Source: Aphanocapsa lilacina HA4352-LM1
Lineage (GTDB): Bacteria; Cyanobacteriota; Cyanobacteriia; Gloeobacterales; Gloeobacteraceae
Reading direction: 5' to 3'
Assembly (NCBI GenBank): GCA_019359725.1
Contig: JAHHGR010000002.1
Span: forward strand, 124,001-188,000
DNA length: 64,000 nucleotides
Part shown: positions 15,322 through 52,151 of the stretch, piece after piece
Layout: every line of letters begins with the position of its first letter
How positions within the stretch are numbered: position 1 is the stretch's first letter
Made by a program: the position numbers and the translations under genes
The notes under the pieces: model-generated
Seen by the model: the letters and a program-made list of their open reading frames with translations, nothing else
Told to the model about the DNA's origin: nothing
Databases searched by the model: none

Positions 15322-16263
15322 ATGCTCCTTGACGCCCGTGACCTGCACAAGTCCTACGGCAAACGGCAGGCGGTCGTCGGTCTGACCTTGCAGGTAGCCG
15401 CGGGCGAAATTTTTGGTCTGCTCGGGCCGAACGGAGCCGGCAAATCGACCACCATCAAGATGCTCGCGGGGCTGGTGGCGCCGGATAGAGGGTCGGTCCG
15501 GGTGGCGGGCTTGGACCTGGTCCGCTCCGCTTGCGCGGCGAAACGCCTGGTGGGCATCGTGCCCCAGGAGTTGGCCGTCTATCCGGGGTTGAGTGCTCGC
15601 GACAATCTTGCTTTTTGGGGCGAACTTTATGGCCTGTCCGGCAGGCGTCTGGCGGCCCGCATCGGGGCGGTGCTCGAAGTGGTGGGCCTTGCCGAGCGCG
15701 GGCGCGAACCGGTCGAACGCTTCTCTGGCGGCATGCAGCGGCGATTGAACCTGGCGATTGGCCTGATTCACGAGCCGCGCTTGCTGCTACTGGACGAACC
15801 GACTGTGGGAGTGGACCCCCAGAGCCGCAACCGCATCTTCGAGAGCATCGAACAACTGAGCCGGGAGGGAATGGCGATCGTCTACACCAGCCACTATCTC
15901 GAGGAAGTCGAACGCCTCTGCCGGCGCGTCGCGATCGTCGACAGCGGCCGGCTGATCGCCGAGGGCACCCCGGCCCAACTGCAGGCGGCAGCCGGCCACG
16001 GTCTGGTGGTGCTCACGGTGCAGCAGCCCCTGGAGGAGGCCGCCGCCGCGCTCGTCGCTCTGCCGGGGGTGGTCGGGGTGCACCAGGAGCAAGGGGATGG
16101 CCGGTTGACGATGGCCGCTCACCGCCCCCAGCAGGTGCTCGTGGCGGCCCTGGAAGTGCTCAGCAAAGCGGGGATCGGCGTTTCGGGCGTGCAACTGGTC
16201 GAATCGAGTCTGGAGGCGGTCTTTTTGCAACTGACCAGCCGCTCGCTCAGGGACGAACCGTGA
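15322..16263 (+). CDS. ABC-2 type exporter, ATP-binding subunit
   Basis: A 313-aa ABC ATPase of the drug/antibiotic exporter branch. Walker A is GPNGAGKST, the signature is [15 protein letters not shown], Walker B is [13 protein letters not shown], and the switch His lies in [10 protein letters not shown]. About 80 residues follow the nucleotide-binding domain, as in the DUF4162-type tail of DrrA-like subunits. Its stop codon overlaps the start of the permease gene by four bases (GTGA), so the two form one translationally coupled exporter. Confidence 0.93.
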
Positions 16264-36871: not shown

Positions 36872-39832
36872 TCAGCGCGGCGCCTGAATCTCCCACTTGA
36901 GGTCGCTCACTGCCTGCAGCGCGACGGAGGAGACGAAGGTGGTGCCGTTCATGAGCCAGATCGAGTTGGCGCCGGTGGCATAGTTGCGCCAGAGAATGTC
37001 CGGCTTGCTGTCGCGGTTGTAGTCGGCGGTGCCGCCGATGCGCCAGCCCAGATCGGCTACAGCCGAGAGCGTGACGCTGGCGACAAAAGCGGTGCCGTCC
37101 ATCGTCCAGACGGTGTTGGCGCCGGTGGCCTGGTTGCGCCAGAGAATATCCGGCTTGCTGTCGCCGGTAAAATCGGCGGCCCCCCCGATGCGCCAGTTGG
37201 GATCGCTCACTGCCGGTAGGGCGATGCTCTCGACAAAGTCGGTGCCGTTCATCTTCCAGATGGTGTTGGCGCCGGTGGTAAAGTTGCGCCAGAGAATATC
37301 CGGCTTACCGTCGCCGGTGTAGTCGCCGGAGCCTTGAATTTGCCAGTTGAGGTCGGCCACCGCCGTGAGCGTTGCGGTGCCGGTGCGCGTAGTACCGTCC
37401 ATCAACCAGACCGAATTTTGGCCGGTAGCCTGGTTGCGCCAGAGAATGTCCAGTTTGCCGTCGGCATTGAAATCGTCAGTACCGCCGATGCGCCAGTTGA
37501 GATCGCCGACGGTCTCGAGCGGAACACTGGCGGAAAAAGCGGTGCCGTTCATACCCCAGACCGTGTTGGCCCCGCTGCCGAAGTTGCGCCAGACGATGTC
37601 GGCGTTGTCGTTGGCACCAAAATCGCCATCGACAGGAACGAGAAATCTGCTGATAAACACGTCGGTGGCGGCGGCGAAGCTAGTGTCGTAGGCGCCGCTG
37701 GTGGTGGGGTACTTGATCGAGGCGGTGGCACCGGTAATAAAGATCCGGCCGCCGCTGCCCACGACGATGCTGGAGCCGTAGTCGTCGGTGGCGCCGCCGA
37801 TAAACGTCGAGTAGAGCAGCCGGTCGCCCAGCACGTTGAGCTTGGAGACGAACACGTCGCCAAAGGACGTGCCGCCGTTGTAGCTGGTGTCGTAGGCGCC
37901 GAAGGTTACCGGAAAATTGGTCGAGAGCGTCGAACCGGTGATGTAAGCGTTGCCGGCACTGTCGAGGACGATGCCGAGGCCGACATCGCCGAGGGCACCG
38001 CCGAGAAAGGTTGAGTAGACCAAAGCGGTGGCCCCGGCGTTCAACCGGGTGACAAACACGTCGGGCAGCAGGTTGTAGCTGGTGTCGTAGGCGCCGCTGG
38101 TGGTCGGAAAATCGGAGGAGGCCGTCGAGCCGGTCACATAGACACTGCCGTCGCTACCCAGGGCGATAGCGTTGCCGGAATCCTGGCCGGCTCCGCCGAG
38201 ATAAGTCGAATAGATCCGGCCGCCCGCGCTGTTGAAACGGGTCACTACCGCATCAAAACCGCCGCCGTTGAACGAAACGTCATAGACACCGGGGTTGGGA
38301 GTGACCGGGAAACCAGCACCGCTGGTGGTGCCGACGACGTAGACACTGTCGTTGCTGCCTTGGACGATGTCGTTACCTGAATCGGCAAGGGTACCGCCGG
38401 TAAATGTCGAATAAACCAGGGTATCGCCCGCCGCCCCAAGCCTGGTCACAAACATATCGGAGCCGCCGTTGAAGGTCGTATCGGCGGTCCCGTCGGTGAC
38501 CGGGAAGTCGAAGGAGCCGGTGTTGCCGGTGATGTAGGCGGCGCCGCCGCCACCCACGACGATGCCGTTACCGTTGTCCTCAAGCGTGCCGCCCAGGTAC
38601 GTGGAGTACACCAGACCGTTGCCCGCAGCGTTCAATTTGGCGACGAACGCATCGTAGGTACCGCCGCCGTAGGATGTATCGTAAGCGTTGGTCGTGGTGG
38701 GAAAATCGGTTGAGGCTGTAGATCCGATCACGTAGGCTTCGTTTTCACGCACCGCGATGTCGGAACCAAAATCGTCGCCGCTACCGCCCAGGTAAGTGGA
38801 ATATACCAACTGCGAACCAGCAGCGTTGAGCTTGGTGATGAACACATCCCCGAATTCGGTGCCGCCGGCGTAGGAACTGTCGTAAGCACTCACCGCGGGA
38901 TAGCTGGTGGAGAGAGTGTACCCGGTGATATAGACGCTGCCGTCACTGCCAAGGACGATGTCGTTTCCGACATCCTGTTCAGCTCCACCCGCGAAGGTCG
39001 AGTAGCTGAGGATCGGATCGATAACCAGCGGCAGGCTGCGGTCGTACTCGCCCACAGCAAAGCTGACTTTGCGGCCGGTCAGCACATACCGGCCGGCGAC
39101 CTGGCGCTTTTGACCACCGATCTGCTGATAGACAACAGGCCGATGCTGACGCATCTCACCCAGGGCAGTGGCAATAATCAGATCGCCGTTGCCGTCGAGA
39201 CGAAGGCTGCGGGCACCGGCGACGTCCATCGCGACCCGTCCCGGATCCACCCCCGGCCCCACCACAAAGTCGTACTCCAGTTGCCGGCCGTTTCCGTAAT
39301 AGACCATATCAATTCCCGGCCAGACCCCCCGGGCCTCAACCCGCTCAAAGGTATCCACATCGGTGCGCCATCTGCCGGTATCCTTGCCGGCCAGATAGTT
39401 CACCTTGCCAGGCAAAACGTCTTTGCCGGCCAGCCGGGCCTTGGGATTGGCGCCCACCAGGTTCATGCGGATCGCCGCCGTCTTGGGTTCGGATCGCTCA
39501 GCAGCGGTCATTGAGGAGCGCAGCTTACTTTTGGAGCGATCCGCTGTGCCCAGGAGCACAACCGCCTCGGTAGGGCCGAGCAACAGGCTGTATCCGGGAC
39601 CGCGGGAGACGTACTGCACCCGCGAATCGGTCTGGCCGACATTCGGCTCGAAGCGCATGGGCAGCTTGCCGAAAGTTTCGCCGATGCGCGCCTGCGCATT
39701 GGGAGACAGTCGCTCGGTCGCCGTCCTGGCCTGGGTGATGTGGGCGCCGATAGGCAGCAACGTCGCTAGCAGCGCAACCGCCGACAACACAGAGAGGGCT
39801 CGTTTATGAAAAGGTCTCGGTATCATGGCCAT
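36872..39832 (-). CDS. secreted SBBP-repeat protein with FG-GAP tail
   Basis: A 986-aa extracellular protein. A signal peptide (ending about AHITQA) is followed by an N-terminal beta-rich domain of about 230 residues (RFEPNVGQTDSRVQYVSRG is the usual opening of SBBP proteins), then about seven SBBP repeats of 60-70 residues (pattern GSDGSVYITGYTLSTSYP, AYDTSY, LVYSTYLGG) that should fold as a propeller. Five 50-residue FG-GAP/VCBS-like repeats at the C-terminus (37624-36875) each have a calcium loop such as DFTGDSKPD and a core ILWRN. The start is ATG 39832; the frame to 39937 is rejected. The function is unknown: surface adhesion or matrix role inferred. Confidence 0.85.
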   Translation of the reverse strand: MAMIPRPFHKRALSVLSAVALLATLLPIGAHITQARTATERLSPNAQARIGETFGKLPMRFEPNVGQTDSRVQYVSRGPGYSLLLGPTEAVVLLGTADRSKSKLRSSMTAAERSEPKTAAIRMNLVGANPKARLAGKDVLPGKVNYLAGKDTGRWRTDVDTFERVEARGVWPGIDMVYYGNGRQLEYDFVVGPGVDPGRVAMDVAGARSLRLDGNGDLIIATALGEMRQHRPVVYQQIGGQKRQVAGRYVLTGRKVSFAVGEYDRSLPLVIDPILSYSTFAGGAEQDVGNDIVLGSDGSVYITGYTLSTSYPAVSAYDSSYAGGTEFGDVFITKLNAAGSQLVYSTYLGGSGDDFGSDIAVRENEAYVIGSTASTDFPTTTNAYDTSYGGGTYDAFVAKLNAAGNGLVYSTYLGGTLEDNGNGIVVGGGGAAYITGNTGSFDFPVTDGTADTTFNGGSDMFVTRLGAAGDTLVYSTFTGGTLADSGNDIVQGSNDSVYVVGTTSGAGFPVTPNPGVYDVSFNGGGFDAVVTRFNSAGGRIYSTYLGGAGQDSGNAIALGSDGSVYVTGSTASSDFPTTSGAYDTSYNLLPDVFVTRLNAGATALVYSTFLGGALGDVGLGIVLDSAGNAYITGSTLSTNFPVTFGAYDTSYNGGTSFGDVFVSKLNVLGDRLLYSTFIGGATDDYGSSIVVGSGGRIFITGATASIKYPTTSGAYDTSFAAATDVFISRFLVPVDGDFGANDNADIVWRNFGSGANTVWGMNGTAFSASVPLETVGDLNWRIGGTDDFNADGKLDILWRNQATGQNSVWLMDGTTRTGTATLTAVADLNWQIQGSGDYTGDGKPDILWRNFTTGANTIWKMNGTDFVESIALPAVSDPNWRIGGAADFTGDSKPDILWRNQATGANTVWTMDGTAFVASVTLSAVADLGWRIGGTADYNRDSKPDILWRNYATGANSIWLMNGTTFVSSVALQAVSDLKWEIQAPR

Positions 39833-39860
39833 TTCCGTAAGTATGTTTTCGAGGGAGTAA

Positions 39861-39947
39861 ACCGGTTTCGCAGCCAATATACACTGCCTCGTCCGGCAAG
39901 GTGGCTCACGGGGAAGATAGACCGGTTTTGTCGGCAATATACATAGC
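39861..39947. repeat. two imperfect 27-bp direct repeats, 60 bp apart
   Basis: ACCGGTTTCGCAGCCAATAT at 39861 and ACCGGTTTTGTCGGCAATAT at 39921 start two near-copies, each followed by a similar ACA-T/C-GC tail. They lie just upstream of the SBBP gene start (39832). Direct repeats in this position could be operator sites or a remnant of a local duplication. Confidence 0.5.
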
Positions 39948-42360: not shown

Positions 42361-42415
42361 GGAGCGCCCTAGCGCTGTGCCGCCCGGACCACTGGCACAG
42401 GGAGCACCCTAGCGC
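42361..42415. repeat. 15-bp imperfect direct repeat, 40 bp apart
   Basis: GGAGCGCCCTAGCGC (42361-42375) and GGAGCACCCTAGCGC (42401-42415) differ at one base. The second contains the stop codon of the copper-radical oxidase gene. It suggests a small tandem duplication at the gene end. Confidence 0.45.
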
Positions 42416-44694
42416 GGGCCGCTCAATTGCCAGCCGGCCCCGACCGCCGACAGCCCCACCGACTGGGCAAAAGCTGTGCCGTTCATCAGCCAGACGGCGT
42501 TGGCGCCGGTGGTCGTGTCGCGCCAGACGATGTCCGCTTTGCCGTCGCCGTTGTAATCGCCCGCCGCCCCGATGCGCCAGACGGTCGAGACCGCCGGCAA
42601 GGCCACCGACTGCGCCAGTGCCGTACCGCTCATCAGCCAGACGCTGTTGGCGCCGGTCTGCTTGTGCCGCCAGAGCAGATCCGCCTGGGCGTCGTTGTTG
42701 AACTGTCCCGCCGCCACTAGTTGCCAGTTGGCGTCGCCCACCGACGGTAGGGCCCGCGAGACGGCGTACTGGATGCCGTTCATCAGCCAGGCGCTCACCT
42801 GGCCGGTGCTCGGATTGCGCCAGAAAATGTCCGGGCGCCCGTCGCCGTCGAAATCGCCCACCCCACCCACCTGCCAGGCGGTGGCCACCAGCGGCAGGGT
42901 GACTTTGGTGCGGTAGGTGGTGCCGTTCATCAGCCAGAGGGTGTTTTCGCCGGTAGCCTGGTTGCGCCAGAGCAGGTCCGGCCGACCGTCGTTATCAAAA
43001 TCGCCGCTGCCGGTGATGAGCCAGTTGGGATCGGAGACAGCGGGCAGGGCCACACTCTGGGTGAAAGTCGTGTTGTTCATCAGCCAGAGGCTGTTTTGAC
43101 CGGTGGAACCGTTGCGCCAGACCAGTTCGGATTTGCGGTCGCCGCTAAAATCCCCGGCAGGCGCCAGGGTGCCGACGCGCACCACCCGTCCTACCGAGGG
43201 GACGCCGTCGCTGTTGAGGATATAGAGCAGGTAGTGCCCGGGGGGGGCAAGATTGCCGTTCGCCGGGGCGGTGACGGTGAGGGTGTTGCCCGAGCGGGTG
43301 AAGGTCAGTTCGTTGAAGCGCTGATTTTGGTTGAAGGCGTGGGTGACCGAGGAGAGGCGCACCCAGGTGACTCGCCGGACATCGGCGGCCTCGGGGCTCT
43401 GGACGGTAAACGCCTGGCCGTAGCCCACGGAGACGGGCGCGGCGCTCACCGTGGGACGCGGCCCGCGAAACAGATAGGGCGGCGAATAAGTCTCCGCACT
43501 CGGGCGGTAGGTCGATTCGCCGCCCTGGCCCCCGGCAGCGGAGAGCACCCGGCCGTCGGGCAACAGCGCCGCTATCGAGTGATAGACGCGCAGGGTGGGC
43601 ATGCTTGCCAGGGTGCTCCAGCTTTGGGTGGCCGGATCCCACAGCTCAGCGGGCAGGGCGGGGGCGGTTTCCTCGTACTTGCCAGGCGCACTGTTGCCGC
43701 CGGTGGCGAGGATCGTGCCGTCCGGCAGCACCGTGAGGTTGTGGTGGCGGCGCGGATAAGCCATCGATTCGACCTGCTGCCAGACCGGGTTCTCGGCGTT
43801 CAGGTCGATGATCTCGGTGGTGGCGGTGGGGGGCGGGCCGTACAGGTCGCCGCCGGCTCCCCCCGAGAGGAGCACTTTACCGGGGGCGTAACTCGCCGCC
43901 GAACCGTAGTCGCGCGTATCGTTAAAGTTCGTGTGCGCCAACGGGATCCAGCGGCCGGTGCCGGTGGTGTCGAGATAGCGGGTGTCCGGCTCCGGCCCGG
44001 CGTAGAAGACCTTGCCGTTGGGGGCGGCGAACATAAACGGGTAATAGCCGTACTTCAGCGAATTGGTGCCGTCCGGCAACTTCTGGGCGTCGACAAGATC
44101 CCGCCAGCCCCCCGTCGTCTTCCAGATCTGGGGCATCTGGTTGATGTTCTGGTAACCCGCGTAGGTTCCGGCGATCACGAGCATCTCGCCGTTGCCCAAC
44201 GTGGTCGTCGTCGGATACCACCGCCGGGCAATCATGTCCTGAACTTTGGTCCAACCCTGGGTGATGTGGTCGTAAATGGTCGTGTCCACCAGGCCGCGGT
44301 CGTCATCTAAATGGCCGCCGGTGACCAGCAACCGCCCGTCGGGCAAAAAGGCGTGCCCGGAGCAAAAGACGTTGGTGGTGCTGTTGAGGATGTTGTTGTT
44401 GACGAAAGTGTCGCTTAGCGGATCCCAAACGCGCGCTTGTGTGGACTTGCCATCGACTTGATTCTCGTCCCAATCGCGACCCCAGGTGAGAACCTTGCCG
44501 TCGGGCAGTACGTGGGCGTGGATGGCGACAAACCCCCAATCTTTGGTCGCGCTCCACTGGCCGAGTATGTCCGGGTCTGTAGACTGGGCACGACTGCTTT
44601 GCACGACAGCAGTGCCAAGGCCCACAGAAAGAGCCGAAACGCCTGTCAAAAATGCAATCGCTTGAACCACGAGGCTGGCAGGAGATTTACGCAT
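42409..44694 (-). CDS. secreted copper-radical oxidase (AA5, glyoxal/galactose-oxidase-like) with FG-GAP tail
   Basis: A 761-aa secreted protein. After a signal peptide (about residues 1-36) comes a seven-bladed kelch propeller and a C-terminal beta domain (DUF1929 type) to about residue 510, as in glyoxal and galactose oxidases. All active-site residues of the family can be placed: Cys111 (FCSGH) for the thioether bond, Tyr160 (ARRWYP) that it cross-links to, axial Tyr371 and His372 (VYHSIAALLPDG), and His452 (SVTHAF). The enzyme should oxidise an aldehyde or primary alcohol and make H2O2. Five 49-50 residue FG-GAP repeats follow. The start is ATG 44694. Confidence 0.85.
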   Translation of the reverse strand: MRKSPASLVVQAIAFLTGVSALSVGLGTAVVQSSRAQSTDPDILGQWSATKDWGFVAIHAHVLPDGKVLTWGRDWDENQVDGKSTQARVWDPLSDTFVNNNILNSTTNVFCSGHAFLPDGRLLVTGGHLDDDRGLVDTTIYDHITQGWTKVQDMIARRWYPTTTTLGNGEMLVIAGTYAGYQNINQMPQIWKTTGGWRDLVDAQKLPDGTNSLKYGYYPFMFAAPNGKVFYAGPEPDTRYLDTTGTGRWIPLAHTNFNDTRDYGSAASYAPGKVLLSGGAGGDLYGPPPTATTEIIDLNAENPVWQQVESMAYPRRHHNLTVLPDGTILATGGNSAPGKYEETAPALPAELWDPATQSWSTLASMPTLRVYHSIAALLPDGRVLSAAGGQGGESTYRPSAETYSPPYLFRGPRPTVSAAPVSVGYGQAFTVQSPEAADVRRVTWVRLSSVTHAFNQNQRFNELTFTRSGNTLTVTAPANGNLAPPGHYLLYILNSDGVPSVGRVVRVGTLAPAGDFSGDRKSELVWRNGSTGQNSLWLMNNTTFTQSVALPAVSDPNWLITGSGDFDNDGRPDLLWRNQATGENTLWLMNGTTYRTKVTLPLVATAWQVGGVGDFDGDGRPDIFWRNPSTGQVSAWLMNGIQYAVSRALPSVGDANWQLVAAGQFNNDAQADLLWRHKQTGANSVWLMSGTALAQSVALPAVSTVWRIGAAGDYNGDGKADIVWRDTTTGANAVWLMNGTAFAQSVGLSAVGAGWQLSGPR

Positions 44695-45034
44695 AACTTC
44701 TTCGGAGCTAAGGGAGGAATTCGCCGCAAATTTATCAGCTGCAATTGGCCGGGGCAAGTTAGAAAAGGCGATTTTGAGCAAATTTCCGTGGATTTCGTAC
44801 AAAAATGTGCCGACCACCGGCAGTGCTTACTCGGCTTTCGACCCTCCGAAAACGAAGTTATTCGCAGTTCTTGTAGCAGTAAAAACACGGATCGTTTTGC
44901 ACTATACCCCGCCCACGGCTGCAAGGGGCCAGGCTGAAAAGCAGCCGATTATCAACATATTATTCTTGAGGCGGATCACTGAATAATCGGCCATGGATTC
45001 GACTTTGTGATCAGATAATAGGAAAGCCCGCCCC
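44695..45034. other. 340-bp divergent intergenic region
   Basis: No gene is seen between the oxidase and the GntR-deacetylase genes. The region is more AT-rich than its surroundings. It contains a 9-bp inverted repeat, GCCGATTAT (44944-44952) and ATAATCGGC (44983-44991), and a GATAAT-like -10 at 45016-45021, about 15 bp before the GTG start of the regulator fusion. An autoregulatory operator for the GntR domain is plausible here. Confidence 0.4.
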
Positions 45035-46012
45035 GTGCAAATTCAAATGAAATTCCGATTTCAGCTCCAAAGCGACAGCGACGTGCCGGCGTCCACCCAG
45101 TTGCTCAACCAAATCAGCTTTGCCATCGCTTCGCGCCAGTTTCCACCGGGCTATCAGTTGCCCAGTACCCGCCAGTTGGCGATGATCACCGGCTTGCACC
45201 GCAACACGATCAGCAAAGTGTACAACCTGCTGGAGCAGATGGGTCTGGTCGAAGCCCAGGCCGGTTCCGGCATCTACGTCAAAGCTATGGGTGGGGCGGG
45301 GGTAATATTTGTGGCAAGCATCCCAGTGGACCTGTACTCAGGCTTTTACCGAGCAGCACACCAGCTCTTGAGCGGCATTTTTCCAGATTGCCTCTGGCAA
45401 GGCGATCCGGGTGTGCCGGAGGTGGCGCTCAGCTTCGACGACGGCCCGGATCCGCGCTATACACCGCCGCTGTTGAATGTTCTGGCCCACCACCGGGTGC
45501 AGGCGAGTTTCTTTTTGTTGGGCAACCGGGTGGCGGCGTCCGCCGGGATTGTCAGGGACATCTACGAAGCGGGGCATTGGCTCGGCCTGCACGGGTACGA
45601 CCACCGCCCTTTTTTGCGCACCGCCGGTCTGCGCGAAAGTTTGGAGCAATCGCGCACGCTGGTCGCCGCAGCCTGCGCTCTGGAGCCGGGGCAGCTGCGC
45701 GACGTGCGTCCGCCCTACGGGATCGCCGCCCCAGCGGTCCTCACCGCTCTGGGCCGCTGGGGGTATCGCCCGGTGATGTGGCAGGTGCTCTCGGACGATT
45801 CGCAGCGGCCCGGCGTCGAGACTGTCGTGCGGCGCACCCTCGCCCAGGTGGGCAACGGCTCGCTGATTGTGCTCCACGACGGCAACGACGGGGCCGGTGA
45901 CGATGTCGCCCGCGCGACCGACCGCATCGTGGCGGCGCTCCTGGCGCGCGGCTACCGGTTTGTGACGGTGGACCGCTTCTGGCAGGGCCGCGCCTCACCG
46001 GGACAGCGATGA
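45035..46012 (+). CDS. GntR-type DNA-binding domain fused to polysaccharide deacetylase
   Basis: A 325-aa protein in one uninterrupted frame. Residues 1-86 are a GntR/YtrA-like winged helix (QLPSTRQLAMITGLHRNTIS then EAQAGSGIYVKA). After a hydrophobic segment (about 89-115), residues 125-320 are a NodB deacetylase with SFDDGPDPRYTP (catalytic Asp and metal Asp), HGYDH (metal His pair), RPPYG and a C-terminal LIVLHDGNDG. Deacetylases usually act in the envelope while GntR domains bind DNA, so the fusion is odd. The start is GTG 45035 or ATG 45047. An internal start near 45290 could make the deacetylase alone. Confidence 0.75.
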   Translation: MQIQMKFRFQLQSDSDVPASTQLLNQISFAIASRQFPPGYQLPSTRQLAMITGLHRNTISKVYNLLEQMGLVEAQAGSGIYVKAMGGAGVIFVASIPVDLYSGFYRAAHQLLSGIFPDCLWQGDPGVPEVALSFDDGPDPRYTPPLLNVLAHHRVQASFFLLGNRVAASAGIVRDIYEAGHWLGLHGYDHRPFLRTAGLRESLEQSRTLVAAACALEPGQLRDVRPPYGIAAPAVLTALGRWGYRPVMWQVLSDDSQRPGVETVVRRTLAQVGNGSLIVLHDGNDGAGDDVARATDRIVAALLARGYRFVTVDRFWQGRASPGQR

Positions 46013-46078: not shown

Positions 46079-46498
46079 TTAGAAGTTGTCGCCCATTTTC
46101 TGCTGAAGGCAGGAGCGGACGGCCTGCCGGTCCTGGTTCTGCTGCCGACATTGCTCAATGGCTGCTTTGAAGGCCGACTGCTGGTCCTGGGACAGGTTGG
46201 GGGGTCCGTCGCCGTCGGGGCGGTTGCGCTCCAGCTTCGATTTTTGCTCGGAGGTGAGGATCGAACCGAGCTTCTGTTGCAGGCACGACTGGCCGCCTTC
46301 GCGGCCGGAGTTTTGGCGGCGGCATTCGCCTGCCGCCTGGCGCAAGGCGTCGCGCTGCTCGGAGGATAGATCGAGATCCGCCATACCGCCGTCGGGGGGC
46401 TGAAATTGGGCGAGGGCAGGGGCGAGGGCGGCCGCTCCCAGCACGGACAGGCCCAACAAGGAGCGGGTCAATAGATGTCGCAGTGTCGAAAACGTCAT
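46079..46498 (-). CDS. small secreted protein with two Cys-pair repeats
   Basis: A 139-aa protein, family not recognised. The signal peptide ends near ALAPALAQ. The mature part has two copies of one motif: LSSEQRDALRQAAGECRRQN ending in SCLQQKLG, and LSQDQQSAFKAAIEQCRQQN ending in SCLQQKMG. Each has Cys-x12-Cys, suggesting one disulfide-clamped helical hairpin per repeat. The periodicity recalls periplasmic LTxxQ/Spy-like proteins but the Cys pairs differ. It is transcribed divergently from the MFP-permease-secretin operon, 231 bp away. A CCCTGACACC copy lies right before its start codon. Confidence 0.65.
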   Translation of the reverse strand: MTFSTLRHLLTRSLLGLSVLGAAALAPALAQFQPPDGGMADLDLSSEQRDALRQAAGECRRQNSGREGGQSCLQQKLGSILTSEQKSKLERNRPDGDGPPNLSQDQQSAFKAAIEQCRQQNQDRQAVRSCLQQKMGDNF

Positions 46499-46729: not shown

Positions 46730-48070
46730 ATGGCTTTGCAAAAACTGCCGAAAACCGTCGGACGCCGCCGACTCGCCCTGGGGCTGCTGCTCACCCTCCT
46801 CGCCGGGGCCTGGCTGCTCTGGGGGGTGCGCGCTGCCCAGCGCCCCGATCCAGAAGGTAGTGGGATGAGCGTTGCGGCTGTACGCCGCAACATCGAGATT
46901 ACCGTCTCGGCGGCGGGGGTGATCAAGCCTCTGACACCGGTCAACATCAGTCCCAAACAAGCTGGGCGCCTCGCCGCACTGTACGTCGATCAGGGCGCCC
47001 GGGTGCGCGCAGGCCAGATTCTCGCCCGCATGGACGACACCAACTTGCGCGGGCAGTACCTGCAGGCGATGGGAAAACAGGAGGCCGCCCGGGCGAGCCT
47101 TGCCAAGCTCACGGCCGGCAACCGCCCTCAGGAAATTGCCCAGGCACACGAAAATCTGCAACAGGCGGAGGCGGATCTGATCTCTGTGCGCTCGAATTAC
47201 CAGAGCAACGCGCGGCTTCTGGCTGAAGGCGGCATCGGCCGCAACAGCTTCGAGCAAAGCCGCTCCGAGTACGAGGCGCAGCAGGCCAAGATCCGGGGGC
47301 TCATGCAGCAGCTGAATTTGTCGCGCGCGGGCAGCCGCAAAGAGGACATCGCCGCTGCCCGCGCCCAGGTGCTCCAGGCGCAGGGCGAAGTGCAAACCGT
47401 CGAAGCGCAGCTGAACGATACGGTGATCCGCGCCCCCTTCGCCGGGACGATCACCCAGAAGTACGCAAGCCCCGGTGCCTTCGTGACTCCCACCACCTCG
47501 GCGAGCAGCACCACCTCAGCCACCTCCTCCTCGATTCTGGCGATGGCGGGGGCTCTGGAAGCACTGGTGAGCGTGCCCGAGTCGGAAATCGCGGCCATTT
47601 GCCCCGATCAGGCGGTCGAACTGACGGTAGACGCCTTTGCCGGGCGGGCCTTCGCAGGCCGGGTGCGCCTGATCGCCCCGGAGGCGGTAGTCAGCCAGAA
47701 CGTCACCAGCTTCGAAGTGAGGGTGAGCGTGCTCGGCGACGGTCAGTCGCTGCTGCGTTCGGGGATGAACCTCACGGCCCGCTTTCGGGTGGACCGAGTG
47801 CAGGGGGCGCTGGTGGTGCCGACCGCCGCCGTCGTCGACGGTCCGACCGGTATCGGGGTGCTGGTGGCGGACCGGGAGGGACGAGGGCACTTTCGGCCGG
47901 TGGAGATCGGTGCCGCCCTCGATACCCAGACCCAGATCCGCTCGGGCCTGAAGGCGGGTGAGCGGGTACTCCTGACGCGCCCCGGCCGCCGCGCTCCCAA
48001 CGGCGAGCCGCCCGCGGGCGGTCCGTTCGGCTTGTCCGGTCCGCCGCCGGGGGCGATGCCGCCACGATGA
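46730..48070 (+). CDS. periplasmic membrane-fusion protein (MacA/HlyD type)
   Basis: A 446-aa adaptor. One N-terminal anchor helix (LALGLLLTLLAGAWLLWGV) is followed by a first lipoyl half (VIKPLTPVNISPKQAGRLAA), a long helical hairpin of about 130 residues (LQQAEADLISVRSNYQSNAR and so on), the second lipoyl half (IRAPFAGTITQKYASPGAFV), a beta-barrel domain and a Pro/Gly-rich tail. The helical hairpin is long enough to reach an outer-membrane partner. Its stop overlaps the permease start by four bases (ATGA). It is first gene of a three-gene run that ends in a secretin. The start is ATG 46730. Confidence 0.9.
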   Translation: MALQKLPKTVGRRRLALGLLLTLLAGAWLLWGVRAAQRPDPEGSGMSVAAVRRNIEITVSAAGVIKPLTPVNISPKQAGRLAALYVDQGARVRAGQILARMDDTNLRGQYLQAMGKQEAARASLAKLTAGNRPQEIAQAHENLQQAEADLISVRSNYQSNARLLAEGGIGRNSFEQSRSEYEAQQAKIRGLMQQLNLSRAGSRKEDIAAARAQVLQAQGEVQTVEAQLNDTVIRAPFAGTITQKYASPGAFVTPTTSASSTTSATSSSILAMAGALEALVSVPESEIAAICPDQAVELTVDAFAGRAFAGRVRLIAPEAVVSQNVTSFEVRVSVLGDGQSLLRSGMNLTARFRVDRVQGALVVPTAAVVDGPTGIGVLVADREGRGHFRPVEIGAALDTQTQIRSGLKAGERVLLTRPGRRAPNGEPPAGGPFGLSGPPPGAMPPR

Positions 48071-49347
48071 ACACGCCTGCAACCGCCCTACCCCCCCGGT
48101 CCCGTCGGGGCATATCGCCCGGCGAAGCGCTCAGCCAGGCGCTCGCGTCGCTACGGGCCAACCCGCTACGCACTATCCTCACGATGCTCGGGATTGTGAT
48201 CGGTGTGGCGGCGGTGATTGCTCTTACAGCGATTGGCCGGGGCGCCCAGGAGCAGACCGACAGGCGCCTCCAGGCGCTCGGAACGAATCTGCTCTATGTG
48301 CAGAGCGGAACGGCCGTCACCGGCAGCCCCGTCTCCCAGGGAGCGGGATCGGCTACCACCCTCACCTGGGAGGACGCCCGGGCCATCGCTCGCAGCGGCG
48401 GCGCCGTGCGCTCGGTCGCTCCCAACTTGAGTGGACGCTTTCAGGTGGTCTACGCCGGGTCCAACACCAACACCTCCGTGATCGGCACCAGCCCCGAGTA
48501 CGAGCAAGTGCACGACTTTGTGCCCCTGACCGGCCGCTTCTTCAACCGGGTGGAATTGGAGCGGGCCACCCGGGTGGCGGTCCTCGGCCAGACGGTTGTG
48601 CGGAAACTGGGGCTGAGCGCGAGGAGTGCCCTGGGCAAGACCGTGCGCATCCGCGGGGAGCACTTTCGGGTGGTGGGCACCCTCGAATACAAGGGAGGCA
48701 GTCCGCCGCGCGATCAAGACGATCAGGTGCTGGTGCCGCTGACGGCGATGGCCGCCCGGTTGGTGGGCACCAACTCCCTGAGCGGCATCGCCGTAGGCAC
48801 GATCGCCGTTGCGGCGACAGGCCCCGACAGGCTCGAGGCCGCCCGCCTGCAAACGGCCGACTTGCTGCGGCGGCTCCACCGGCTTGGTCCCGTCCAGGAG
48901 GACGATTTTTCGATCCGCTCCCAGGCCGACCTGCGCGCGAGCGCCAACCAGATAACCGGTATCTTCACGACTCTGCTCGGGGCGACGGCGGCCATCTCGC
49001 TGGTAGTTGGAGGCATCGGGATCATGAATATTATGCTGGTCTCGGTGAGCGAGCGCACCCGTGAGATTGGCCTGAGAAAAGCGGTGGGTGCGCGCTCGGG
49101 CGATATCCTCGGCCAGTTTTTGCTCGAAGCGGTAGCGCTCTCGATGGGCGGCGGCATCCTGGGCTTGGTCTGCGGCTTTGCCGCCTCCGCCGGGGTGGGT
49201 GCGGCCCTGGGCTGGGCGGCGAGTGTCTCTTTCGAAGCGGTGGTGCTGTCGCTGGTAGTGTCCGTGGCTGTCGGCCTGCTTTTTGGCCTCTACCCGTCCA
49301 GTCGGGCCGCCCGCCTTGATCCGGCGGTCGCCCTGCGCAGCGACTGA
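48067..49347 (+). CDS. MacB/FtsX-type ABC transporter permease
   Basis: A 426-aa permease with the MacB topology. One N-terminal helix (ILTMLGIVIGVAAVIALTAI) leads to a periplasmic domain of about 230 residues and three C-terminal helices (SLVVGGIGIMNIMLVSVSER, and two more). ERTREIGLRKAVGARSGDIL is the conserved FtsX coupling segment. In MacB the ATPase is fused at the N-terminus and in LolCDE-type systems it is a neighbour; here it is absent from both this gene and its neighbours. It must pair with an ATPase encoded elsewhere if it is active. Translationally coupled to the MFP; the secretin gene follows after 40 bp. Confidence 0.9.
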   Translation: MNTPATALPPRSRRGISPGEALSQALASLRANPLRTILTMLGIVIGVAAVIALTAIGRGAQEQTDRRLQALGTNLLYVQSGTAVTGSPVSQGAGSATTLTWEDARAIARSGGAVRSVAPNLSGRFQVVYAGSNTNTSVIGTSPEYEQVHDFVPLTGRFFNRVELERATRVAVLGQTVVRKLGLSARSALGKTVRIRGEHFRVVGTLEYKGGSPPRDQDDQVLVPLTAMAARLVGTNSLSGIAVGTIAVAATGPDRLEAARLQTADLLRRLHRLGPVQEDDFSIRSQADLRASANQITGIFTTLLGATAAISLVVGGIGIMNIMLVSVSERTREIGLRKAVGARSGDILGQFLLEAVALSMGGGILGLVCGFAASAGVGAALGWAASVSFEAVVLSLVVSVAVGLLFGLYPSSRAARLDPAVALRSD

Positions 49348-49387
49348 GCTTCGGCTATCTGTACATTTTCTTGCGAGGTATCCGGCG

Positions 49388-50938
49388 ATGCGCTCTCTGG
49401 TATGGCTCCTGCCGGCGCTGCTGGCCGCTCCAGCCGCCGCCGCCCCTCCGGTCGAACCGGCGGCCGTTGCCCCGTCTGAGACGTTGAGTTTGAAAGTCCG
49501 CGACGGCGAAGTGCGCGATACCCTCTCGCTGCTCGGGCGGGTAGCCGGGATGAACGTGATTGCCGACGCCTCGGTGGGCGGTCGGATTTCGCTCAATCTC
49601 GACAAAGTCACCTTCGCCGCCGCCCTCGACGCTCTGGCCCTCACGGCCGGGCTTGCCGTCACCCGCACCGAGGGCAATGTGTACATCGTGAGCAAACCGC
49701 CCGCCTCGGGCCTCAGCCCGCTTGTCGGTCGCAGCGGCCCCACCGGCGGCGATCCCAAAGATCGGCCGGTGAATTTCAACGTCAAGAACGCCGAACTCGC
49801 CTCGGTGATCGAGAACATCGCCAATCAGGCGGGAGCGCAGTTGCTGGTCAAAGGGGCGCTCAGCGACCGGGTGAGCGGCAGACTCGCGGGGGCGCGCTTC
49901 GAGGACGCCCTGCGCCGGTTGCTCGCGGGCACCCGCTACGGCTTTGTGCGCGAGGGGGACGCCTACTTGATTGGCGATGCCACCCCCGGTACTCCCACCA
50001 GCCGCGCCCTAGAGGAGACCGAATCGTTCGCGCTGGCCTACACGGCGGCCAAATCGGTAAGCAAGTTGATCCCGGCGAGCCTCACCCAGTACGTCAAAAT
50101 CGACGAGGCGCGCAACGCCGTGGTGGTGAGCGGCACCGAGTTGCTGCGCAACCAGGTCAAAAAGCTGCTCAGCCGCATCGACGCCCCCCTCAAGCAGGTC
50201 GTCTTCGAGGTGAAGATTATCGAACTGACCGACACCGGGTCGCGCGACCTAAACGCCCTGAAACTTGTGCAAAACGGCAGCACCGTGAGCGCCGACGCCG
50301 AGGGCGGCACGGCCTTGAGCGCCGCCGGGCAACTGGCCGATAGTTCTGCTTTAGGAGTGCTCAACGGCGTGGCGCGGGTGCTGGAGGTGGTGAGCGGCCT
50401 GGTGAGCGAGGGCAAGGGCCGCCTGCTCACCGACACCAAGCTCAGCACCGTGAGCGGCCAAAAAGCCGCCCTCGATGTACAGACCGACATCAACTTGACC
50501 CTCACCACCCAGAGCACGGTCAACGGCTCCACCACCAACACCACAACCATCAACACCCTGCGGGCGGGCACGGTCGTGGAACTCGAACCCACCGTGCAGG
50601 CCGACGGCAATGTGCTCGCCGTCCTCAATCTCGAATCGTCGGTGGCCGGTTCGCGCGCCAACACCAACACCGCCCCGGACATCTCCAGGCGCAAAGTGCG
50701 CAACACGCTGCTGCTCAAAAACAACCAGACCATCGAAATCGGCGGGCTCATCCAGACCAACAACACCGAGAACATCACCCGCATCCCGATCGTGGGTTAC
50801 TTGCCGCTGATTGGTCAGCTATTCAGCAACACTTCAGTCTCGGTGGACCAGCGCGAGTTGCTGGTGTTCCTGACCCCGCGCATCCGCGATGTGCAGCCTT
50901 TGCCCGATGCCCAGCTGCCCCTCGGTCCGGCGCGATGA
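49388..50938 (+). CDS. outer-membrane secretin (GspD/PilQ superfamily)
   Basis: A 516-aa secretin. The signal peptide is MRSLVWLLPALLAAPAAA. Two N-domain repeats of the STN type (LSLKVRDGEVRDTLSLLGRV; VNFNVKNAELASVIENIANQ) are followed by an N3-like KH domain (YVKIDEARNAVVVSGTELLR), then the secretin core with LLTDTKLSTVSGQKAALDVQ and the C-terminal GYLPLIGQLF...ELLVFLTPRI signature. It forms a large gated ring in the outer membrane. No pilMNOP or gsp genes are near. It sits instead directly behind an MFP and MacB-like permease. The start is ATG 49388 with GAGG 9 nt before it. Confidence 0.9.
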   Translation: MRSLVWLLPALLAAPAAAAPPVEPAAVAPSETLSLKVRDGEVRDTLSLLGRVAGMNVIADASVGGRISLNLDKVTFAAALDALALTAGLAVTRTEGNVYIVSKPPASGLSPLVGRSGPTGGDPKDRPVNFNVKNAELASVIENIANQAGAQLLVKGALSDRVSGRLAGARFEDALRRLLAGTRYGFVREGDAYLIGDATPGTPTSRALEETESFALAYTAAKSVSKLIPASLTQYVKIDEARNAVVVSGTELLRNQVKKLLSRIDAPLKQVVFEVKIIELTDTGSRDLNALKLVQNGSTVSADAEGGTALSAAGQLADSSALGVLNGVARVLEVVSGLVSEGKGRLLTDTKLSTVSGQKAALDVQTDINLTLTTQSTVNGSTTNTTTINTLRAGTVVELEPTVQADGNVLAVLNLESSVAGSRANTNTAPDISRRKVRNTLLLKNNQTIEIGGLIQTNNTENITRIPIVGYLPLIGQLFSNTSVSVDQRELLVFLTPRIRDVQPLPDAQLPLGPAR

Positions 50939-51378: not shown

Positions 51379-52151
51379 CCCCAGCCGCCAAACGCCAGGC
51401 CGCCGTCTATCTGCAGGCCGGGCTGCAGCTGTCGCAGCGGCGGGCCTGTCGGCTGCTGGGGTTGCACCGTTCCACTGCCAGACTGATCAGCCGTCGCACG
51501 GAAGATCCGGTCCTGCTGGCGCGCCTGAAGTATTTGGCTGCCGAGCGCCCACGCTATGGCTGTCGCAGGCTCACCGCCCTGTTGAGAAAAGAAGGCACGC
51601 TCGTCAACGCCAAGAAAATCTACCGGTTGTGCACCAAGGAGGGACTGCTGGTGCGCCCAAAAAAGCGTAAACCCCGCCTCCGGTCGTCTCCTCGACCGGA
51701 GGTGCCTGGCTTGGAACGTCCCAACCAGTTGTGGAGCCTGGACTTCGTCGAGGATGCCCTGGCCGATGGGCGCAAACTGCGGACCTTGACGATCGTGGGG
51801 GCCGTTGGGTCAACGGCCCTGGATGTCTACAGCCGGGAGTGTCCACAGATAGAAGTGGCTACCTCTTTGCCTTCAGCTCGGGTCGTGCGGGTGCTGGAGA
51901 GTCTGGCCGCCAGGCGGCAGTTGCTGGTGGACAATGGACCGGAGTTTAGCTGCCGGAAGCTTGCCGAGTGGGCAACGCAGCGCGGTATCCGCATCGCCTT
52001 CACCCGCCCTGGCAAGCCAACTGACAAGCCGCACATCGAGAGCTTCAACGGCAAATTTCGGGATGAGTGCTTGAATGCAGACTACTTCCTGAGCGTGGCT
52101 GATGCCAGACAGATCATCGAAACCTGGCGGTTGGACTACGTCGCCCCTTGA
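51372..52151 (+). pseudogene. IS3 orfB transposase, truncated and with insertion
   Basis: Integrase-core transposase half, in the -1 frame to orfA. The HTH_21 region (YLAAERPRYGCRRLTALLRK) is followed by the rve core with all three DDE residues visible: Asp in WSLDFVEDAL, Asp in LLVDNGPEF, Glu in HIESFNGKFRDE. Eight extra residues (GAVGSTAL) interrupt TIV-DVYSREC, encoded by a palindromic 24-bp insertion. The protein stops at LDYVAP where relatives continue with an RPH-containing tail of about 40 residues. It has no own start before ATG 51462. Probably inactive. Confidence 0.75.
51799..51819. repeat. palindromic insertion within orfB
   Basis: GGGCCGTTG, GGT, CAACGGCCC: 9-bp perfect arms with a 3-nt loop. 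Removing 24 bp here restores the usual TIVDVYSREC sequence of IS3 transposases, so it is a discrete in-frame insertion. Confidence 0.65.

Follow-up and report, generated by a model that had tools for sequence, protein, structure and literature searches.

A periplasmic adaptor, a MacB-type permease and a short secretin encoded in one row in Aphanocapsa lilacina HA4352-LM1

When the genes of a pump and the gene of an outer-membrane ring stand in one row, do their products form one machine, or do two systems share a locus? The question is raised by a periplasmic adaptor (MFP), a MacB-type permease and a secretin encoded one after another in Aphanocapsa lilacina HA4352-LM1, within a stretch of 64,000 nucleotides that was analysed as a whole and is called the window here (G000:C2:124001-188000; the assembly comprises 4.2 Mb in 99 contigs). 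An initial annotation, made from the letters alone, had put forward a hybrid export or assembly machine in which the secretin takes the position of TolC, and had named as the simple alternative an ordinary pump whose ATPase and TolC are encoded elsewhere, next to an unrelated secretin. The window genome (G000) and the genomes G001, G002 and G003 are referred to as congeners.

The gene row in the window

The open reading frames and the Pfam and NCBIfam models agree that the three envelope proteins are encoded consecutively on the plus strand, as had been proposed (Table 1). The MFP and permease frames overlap by 4 bp (ATGA) and the permease and secretin frames are separated by 40 bp, a gap whose length is unchanged in the sister genome G003. 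The secretin frame is already open at 49283, but in favour of the start at 49388 are a ribosome-binding-like GAGG, an N-terminus that by eye resembles a signal peptide, and an identical start in G003. This spacing suggests that the three genes are co-transcribed. A promoter and terminator scan was uninformative, giving one promoter-like site, 3' of the secretin, and three terminator-like sites against 3.9 in shuffles.

Table 1. Genes at the locus, their positions in the window and the evidence on which each assignment is based
Feature	Position	Strand	Basis
MFP (periplasmic adaptor, MacA/HgdB-like)	46730..48070	+	Pfam/NCBIfam, related structures, tree, alignment, model
MacB/FtsX-type ABC permease without ATPase domain	48067..49347	+	Pfam/NCBIfam, related structures, tree
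Short secretin, 516 aa	49388..50938	+	Pfam/NCBIfam, related structures, model, Foldseek
Small periplasmic-type protein, 139 aa, divergent from MFP	46079..46498	-	ORF, linkage in relatives
IS transposase (integrase core), downstream of secretin	51462..52151	+	Pfam

The lack of local partners was also borne out. With an ATPase, GspE and a PilX-like protein as tblastn queries against the window, no homolog adjoining the three genes was found; the sole match was an ABC ATPase at 15382-15963, 31 kb away and 29% identical, and the flanking genes tested belong to other families. The window holds no TolC-type (OEP) gene according to a search of the genome, which gave ten matches at five places, all of them outside.

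Between G000 and G003, dN/dS (NG86) is 0.19 for the MFP, 0.14 for the permease, 0.13 for the secretin and 0.14 for the small gene at 46079, compared with 0.11 and 0.06 for a paralogous MFP-permease pair on contig C77 and 0.09 for the secretin on contig C23; the ATPase on contig C14 was left out of this comparison because its frames have unequal starts. The genes of the locus are therefore maintained under purifying selection, and they evolve somewhat faster than the C77 pair and the C23 secretin.

The adaptor-permease pair, its ATPase and its exit

Adaptor and permease carry the features of a MacAB/DevBCA-type exporter (type VII ABC). The MFP matches HlyD_D23, HlyD_3 and Biotin_lipoyl_2 and reaches 167 bits against RND_mfp, which provides the lipoyl/barrel match, and the long alpha-hairpin expected by the initial annotation appears in a single-sequence model, with its turn near residues 166-168 (mean pLDDT 49, poor outside the helices and used for the turn only). 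The permease combines a MacB periplasmic core (MacB_PCD, 159 bits) with an FtsX C-terminal part (69 bits), both above cut-off, and has no nucleotide-binding domain. Its segment SVSERTREIG (SVSERTREIGLRKAVGA) between the TM helices, which we take to be the segment facing the ATPase in the MacB-type family, is intact; a strict pattern for this coupling segment matched 7 of 18 permeases, a result that speaks for its presence in the window and not for its universality. By sequence the adaptor is related to MacA (4dk0, 9qgy, 5nik) and the permease to MacB (5gko, 5nik, 5lil). The window pair differs from MacAB-TolC of E. coli in that the ATPase is neither fused nor linked, that the hairpin tip reads S/L/G instead of R/L/S, and that a secretin gene stands next to the pair.

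Where the ATPase may come from is indicated by the relatives. The window permease falls into a clade of 11 rows (support 100/97 in the permease tree), and the same genome holds the C77 MFP-permease paralog at 60-61% identity, likewise without ATPase or secretin. An adjacent MacB-type ATPase was found for one permease of the eleven, that of G006, where it lies directly 3' of the permease gene. For the remaining ten, that of the window among them, tblastn of the fetched stretches found no nearby ATPase, bar the distant one in the window; two of these ten are also without an adaptor (G008_C15, whose contig begins at the permease, and G007_317k, which has an S41 peptidase gene upstream). Each of the four congeners encodes a counterpart of the operonic ATPase of G006, 81% identical to it, and tblastn detected no MFP or permease homolog in the fetched stretch of 14-15 kb that holds this counterpart in any of them. 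In G000 this counterpart lies on C14, with pyruvate-kinase-like and radical-SAM genes as neighbours. The ATPase for the window pair is probably encoded elsewhere, as the orphan MacB-type ATPase on C14, which may drive the window pair from a distance; the exit of the pair would be one of the TolC-type proteins encoded elsewhere in the genome.

A comparable arrangement is known from Anabaena sp. PCC 7120, in which the adaptor HgdB and the DevC/MacB-type permease HgdC are encoded in a cluster without an ATPase gene, the ATPase is thought to be supplied from elsewhere, and HgdB interacts in vitro with the TolC-like HgdD, whose gene lies elsewhere (PMC6161253). This likeness is one of gene content, not of direct sequence comparison, and it does not extend to the secretin, which the available passages of that source do not mention in the Anabaena cluster.

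The short secretin and its relatives

The third protein has the N0/STN, Secretin_N and barrel composition of type IV pilus and type II secretins. It matches Secretin (127 bits), Secretin_N and two STN stretches, and a model of moderate quality (66.5) contains two N0-like domains, one N3-like domain and the barrel, so that the two STN-type domains described earlier are recognized both by profile and in the model. Foldseek with this model gave low TM-scores, 0.12-0.30 by query length among the 50 matches listed, and was used for the fold class only. PilQ and GspD models and structures are both matched; of the two models PilQ scores best (163 bits, cut-off 284), followed by GspD (120 bits, cut-off 351). 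The initial annotation had regarded a grouping of the secretin with PilQ, together with an MFP placed inside pumps always paired with TolC, as evidence against a hybrid; PilQ does rank first, but at a score below its cut-off, and the nearest kin is the secretin of a GspE operon.

Four secretins above cut-off are encoded in the genome. The C23 secretin is the nearest paralog of the window secretin, with 63% identity, and the other two share 23-25%. On C23, a GspE gene (T2SSE), the secretin gene and a gene for a 758-aa protein that matches PilX_N weakly (19.3 bits against a cut-off of 25.5) follow one another. The window secretin differs from that of C23 in being short, in lacking an extra N-terminal domain, and in not standing beside GspE or a pilin. 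Each of the nine genomes examined from the order has the GspE-secretin row (three of them with a single gene in between), and a PilX-like gene (723-831 aa) is next in seven of the nine, none being found in G006 and G008. A profile search with E up to 1e-50 located the secretin family in 9 of 388 genomes of the class, namely the nine of the order (G000-G008), and the row is possibly an order-specific type II/IV-like system. The minimal pilus-like row itself occupies L072:2979-8746 (G000:C23), and its counterparts are found at L108, L111, L112, L113, L114, L115, L116 and L117.

Short secretins are present in the window, in G003 and in G002, and they form a clade (100/99) that adjoins the GspE-operon secretins of Gloeobacter (86/92). 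All of the eight aligned GspE-operon relatives have about 100 N-terminal residues that the short form is without; this lost part is taken for an AMIN-like domain, for which Pfam gave no confirming match. By its kinship the short secretin is a duplicate of the GspE-operon secretin. The branching order of the short form, the Gloeobacter GspE-operon form and G004 is unsettled in the tree, which was built without the G003 GspE-operon copy, and the duplication is therefore to be placed in or before the Gloeobacter ancestor. G003 also holds an incomplete extra copy of the short secretin gene, from its 3' end (L058:234-860; G003:C1:2634232-2634840), which agrees in 596 of 627 bases with the full copy at a distance of about 4.4 kb.

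Linkage of pump and secretin

The full triad is present in two of the four congeners, G000 and G003, whose proteins are 94-96% identical. Among the matches listed for the 59 genomes compared, permease and secretin lie within 5 kb of each other only in these two. The search for the three-gene order in other cyanobacteria that the initial annotation called for thus yielded a second genome, but among the genomes compared the order was seen in no more than two close species. The GTDB collection, from which records of the window genome and of close ones were possibly left out, was searched with the secretin alignment and two short peptide patterns, and gave four loci (G004, G005, G006 and G008) and no further triad.

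The other relatives hold parts of the locus. G002 has an intact short secretin of 521 aa, divergent from a 46079-like gene; the MFP-permease pair is absent there, and the sole pair of this clade in G002 is of the C77 type and lies far from the short secretin. In G004 the pair most closely related to that of the window (support 83/91 and 86/90) precedes an SLH-OprB porin gene, beyond which a 46079-like gene lies. G001 is syntenic with the window (95%) up to position 46162, where the similarity ends inside the 46079 gene, and neither a copy of the window-type pair nor a short secretin was found in that genome. Past this break (L136:8723-9597), reading of the frames in G001 gives an XRE/peptidase-like gene and then a PIN-like gene. 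G000 and G003 differ by a rearrangement on the right flank of the locus.

The small protein encoded at 46079-46498 has an N-terminus that by eye resembles a signal peptide, and two repeats that contain Cys and L[ST]xxQ-like motifs; its Pfam score for LTXXQ, 13.8 bits, is below the cut-off of 24.3, and membership in that family was rejected. The copy near the MFP-permease pair in G004 is the only one found there (35-38% identity, E 6e-6). In the tree of this family the G002 copy is not separated from the window type, and both stand apart from the C11 paralogs (98/100). Because it is linked in relatives, the 46079 gene appears to belong to the same locus; and since a gene of the 46079 type accompanies the pair in G004 and the secretin in G002, the parts of the locus seem to keep meeting in different lineages, so that chance alone becomes a less likely explanation. 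The gap between the 46079 gene and the MFP showed no significant promoter homology to the 46079-secretin gap of G002 (the score was reached by 90 of 500 shuffles for G000 and by 261 of 500 for G003). The 231 bases 5' of the secretin gave a score against the G002 gap that 7 of 500 shuffles reached, a similarity read as mostly ribosome-binding region. Members of the family, with paired Cys, were found in Gloeobacter, with weak matches in G004 and G007 as well; a C11-type paralog has similar surroundings in G000, G001 and G003.

On this evidence we lean towards an ordinary HgdBC/MacAB-type pair with a remote ATPase and a TolC-type exit, beside a stand-alone duplicated secretin. The genome would hold two closely related export pairs of the HgdB/HgdC-like (MacAB) type, both powered by the shared orphan ATPase on C14, and the MFP and the permease would be one of them; for this window pair the most likely exit would be a TolC-type protein whose gene lies elsewhere. 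The secretin would descend from that of the GspE-secretin-pilin operon through a duplication no later than the Gloeobacter ancestor, with loss of its N-terminal domain; it would be co-expressed with the pair and the small periplasmic protein, and form its own outer-membrane pore instead of being an obligate part of the pump. We infer this independence: in G002 a secretin persists together with the divergent small gene and without this pair, and in G001 the locus is broken off inside the small gene, a distribution that argues against an obligate three-part machine. The simple alternative of the initial annotation consequently fares better than its hybrid, strengthened by the orphan ATPase, by the five TolC-type loci and by a secretin derived from the GspE operon; a plain dismissal of the hybrid is opposed by the linkage of the locus and the changed adaptor tip. 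Other points against the preferred reading are the tight spacing and the retention of the genes between G000 and G003 (dN/dS 0.13-0.19).

A hybrid is unlikely. In such a machine the secretin would replace TolC, the MFP would dock on its ring, and the permease, with the orphan ATPase as its motor, would move substrate or gate the secretin. The tip of the adaptor hairpin bears on this reading. Adaptors of the MacA type contact TolC via the RLS motif (RxxxLxxxxxxS) at this tip, and the serine of the motif tolerates change, according to the available passages of PMC3391258. Among 14 aligned adaptors the leucine is present in all and the arginine in 2; the last position is serine in 10, alanine in 2, and glycine only in the window MFP and that of G003. 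These two therefore read S-L-G, having exchanged the serine, while most adaptors of the group are without the full motif too; the motif looks weak across the whole group because the arginine is missing in 12 of 14. Within the tip (residues 153-176), both window-type adaptors depart from the others at 4 of 10 invariant sites, compared with 18 of 179 in the rest of the protein (one-sided Fisher P 0.018), where the sites counted are those invariant in seven relatives, the sample is small, and the tip window was picked post hoc, after inspection of the alignment. Four control lineages show at most one change (G004_C48 1/11, G006 0/10, G002 1/11, C77 group 0/10), whereas the nearest relative, the G004_C9 adaptor, which has no secretin beside it, shows 4 of 14 (P 0.13). 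The altered tip is one clue favouring the hybrid, and could equally reflect the use of another TolC paralog.

Gene order and spacing preserved in G003, and the shedding by the secretin of a domain that its eight relatives retain, would also fit a hybrid; the secretin of G002, which has no pair at its side, does not. The two rings would moreover fit poorly in geometry, as adaptors are hexamers matched to TolC and secretins are rings of 12-15. A pairing of an MFP with a secretin was not found in the literature searched, including the secretin passages of PMC8277102. The evidence for the three proteins as one machine is weak, and quite unlikely, too, is the corresponding history, in which a MacAB-type exporter of the Gloeobacter lineage recruited a duplicated pilus-type secretin to replace TolC, the secretin shedding its domain, the tip being rewritten and the remote ATPase driving the whole.

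The short secretin might instead serve as an alternative outer-membrane ring for the C23 GspE-pilin system, or for another pilus-like system, and be merely co-transcribed with the pump. Its closeness to a secretin encoded between GspE and a PilX-like protein and its intact N0-type domains agree with this, but the GspE operon retains an open secretin frame of its own in all four congeners, and we consider such a role improbable. That a rearrangement placed the duplicated secretin behind the pump and left a meaningless linkage is very improbable, given purifying selection on all genes and the 46079-like genes in G004 and G002, even though the right flanks differ, an IS lies alongside, a partial secretin copy is near in G003 and the locus is broken in G001.

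The combination of a pump pair with a duplicated, domain-reduced secretin is unusual, and no description of it was found in the parts of the literature searched. We know of no earlier link between tripartite pumps and secretin machines. If the adaptor truly works with the secretin, the locus would provide the first such link and would bear on the exchange of outer-membrane exits in early-branching cyanobacteria. Even if there is no hybrid, it presents a pilus-type secretin that is away from an assembly ATPase, yet under selection, and a clear example of adaptor-permease pairs with one remote ATPase that they probably have in common.

Two genes to the left of the locus may be added. The frame at 45035-46012 joins a GntR-type DNA-binding domain and a polysaccharide deacetylase. 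In G001 and G003 the corresponding parts (residues 1-89 and 85-325) lie about 715 bases apart, so the fusion looks like a deletion (or an assembly slip) special to G000. At 42409-44817 a galactose/glyoxal-oxidase-like protein with C-terminal FG-GAP repeats is encoded, which partly resembles the neighbouring 1021-aa protein at 36872-39937.
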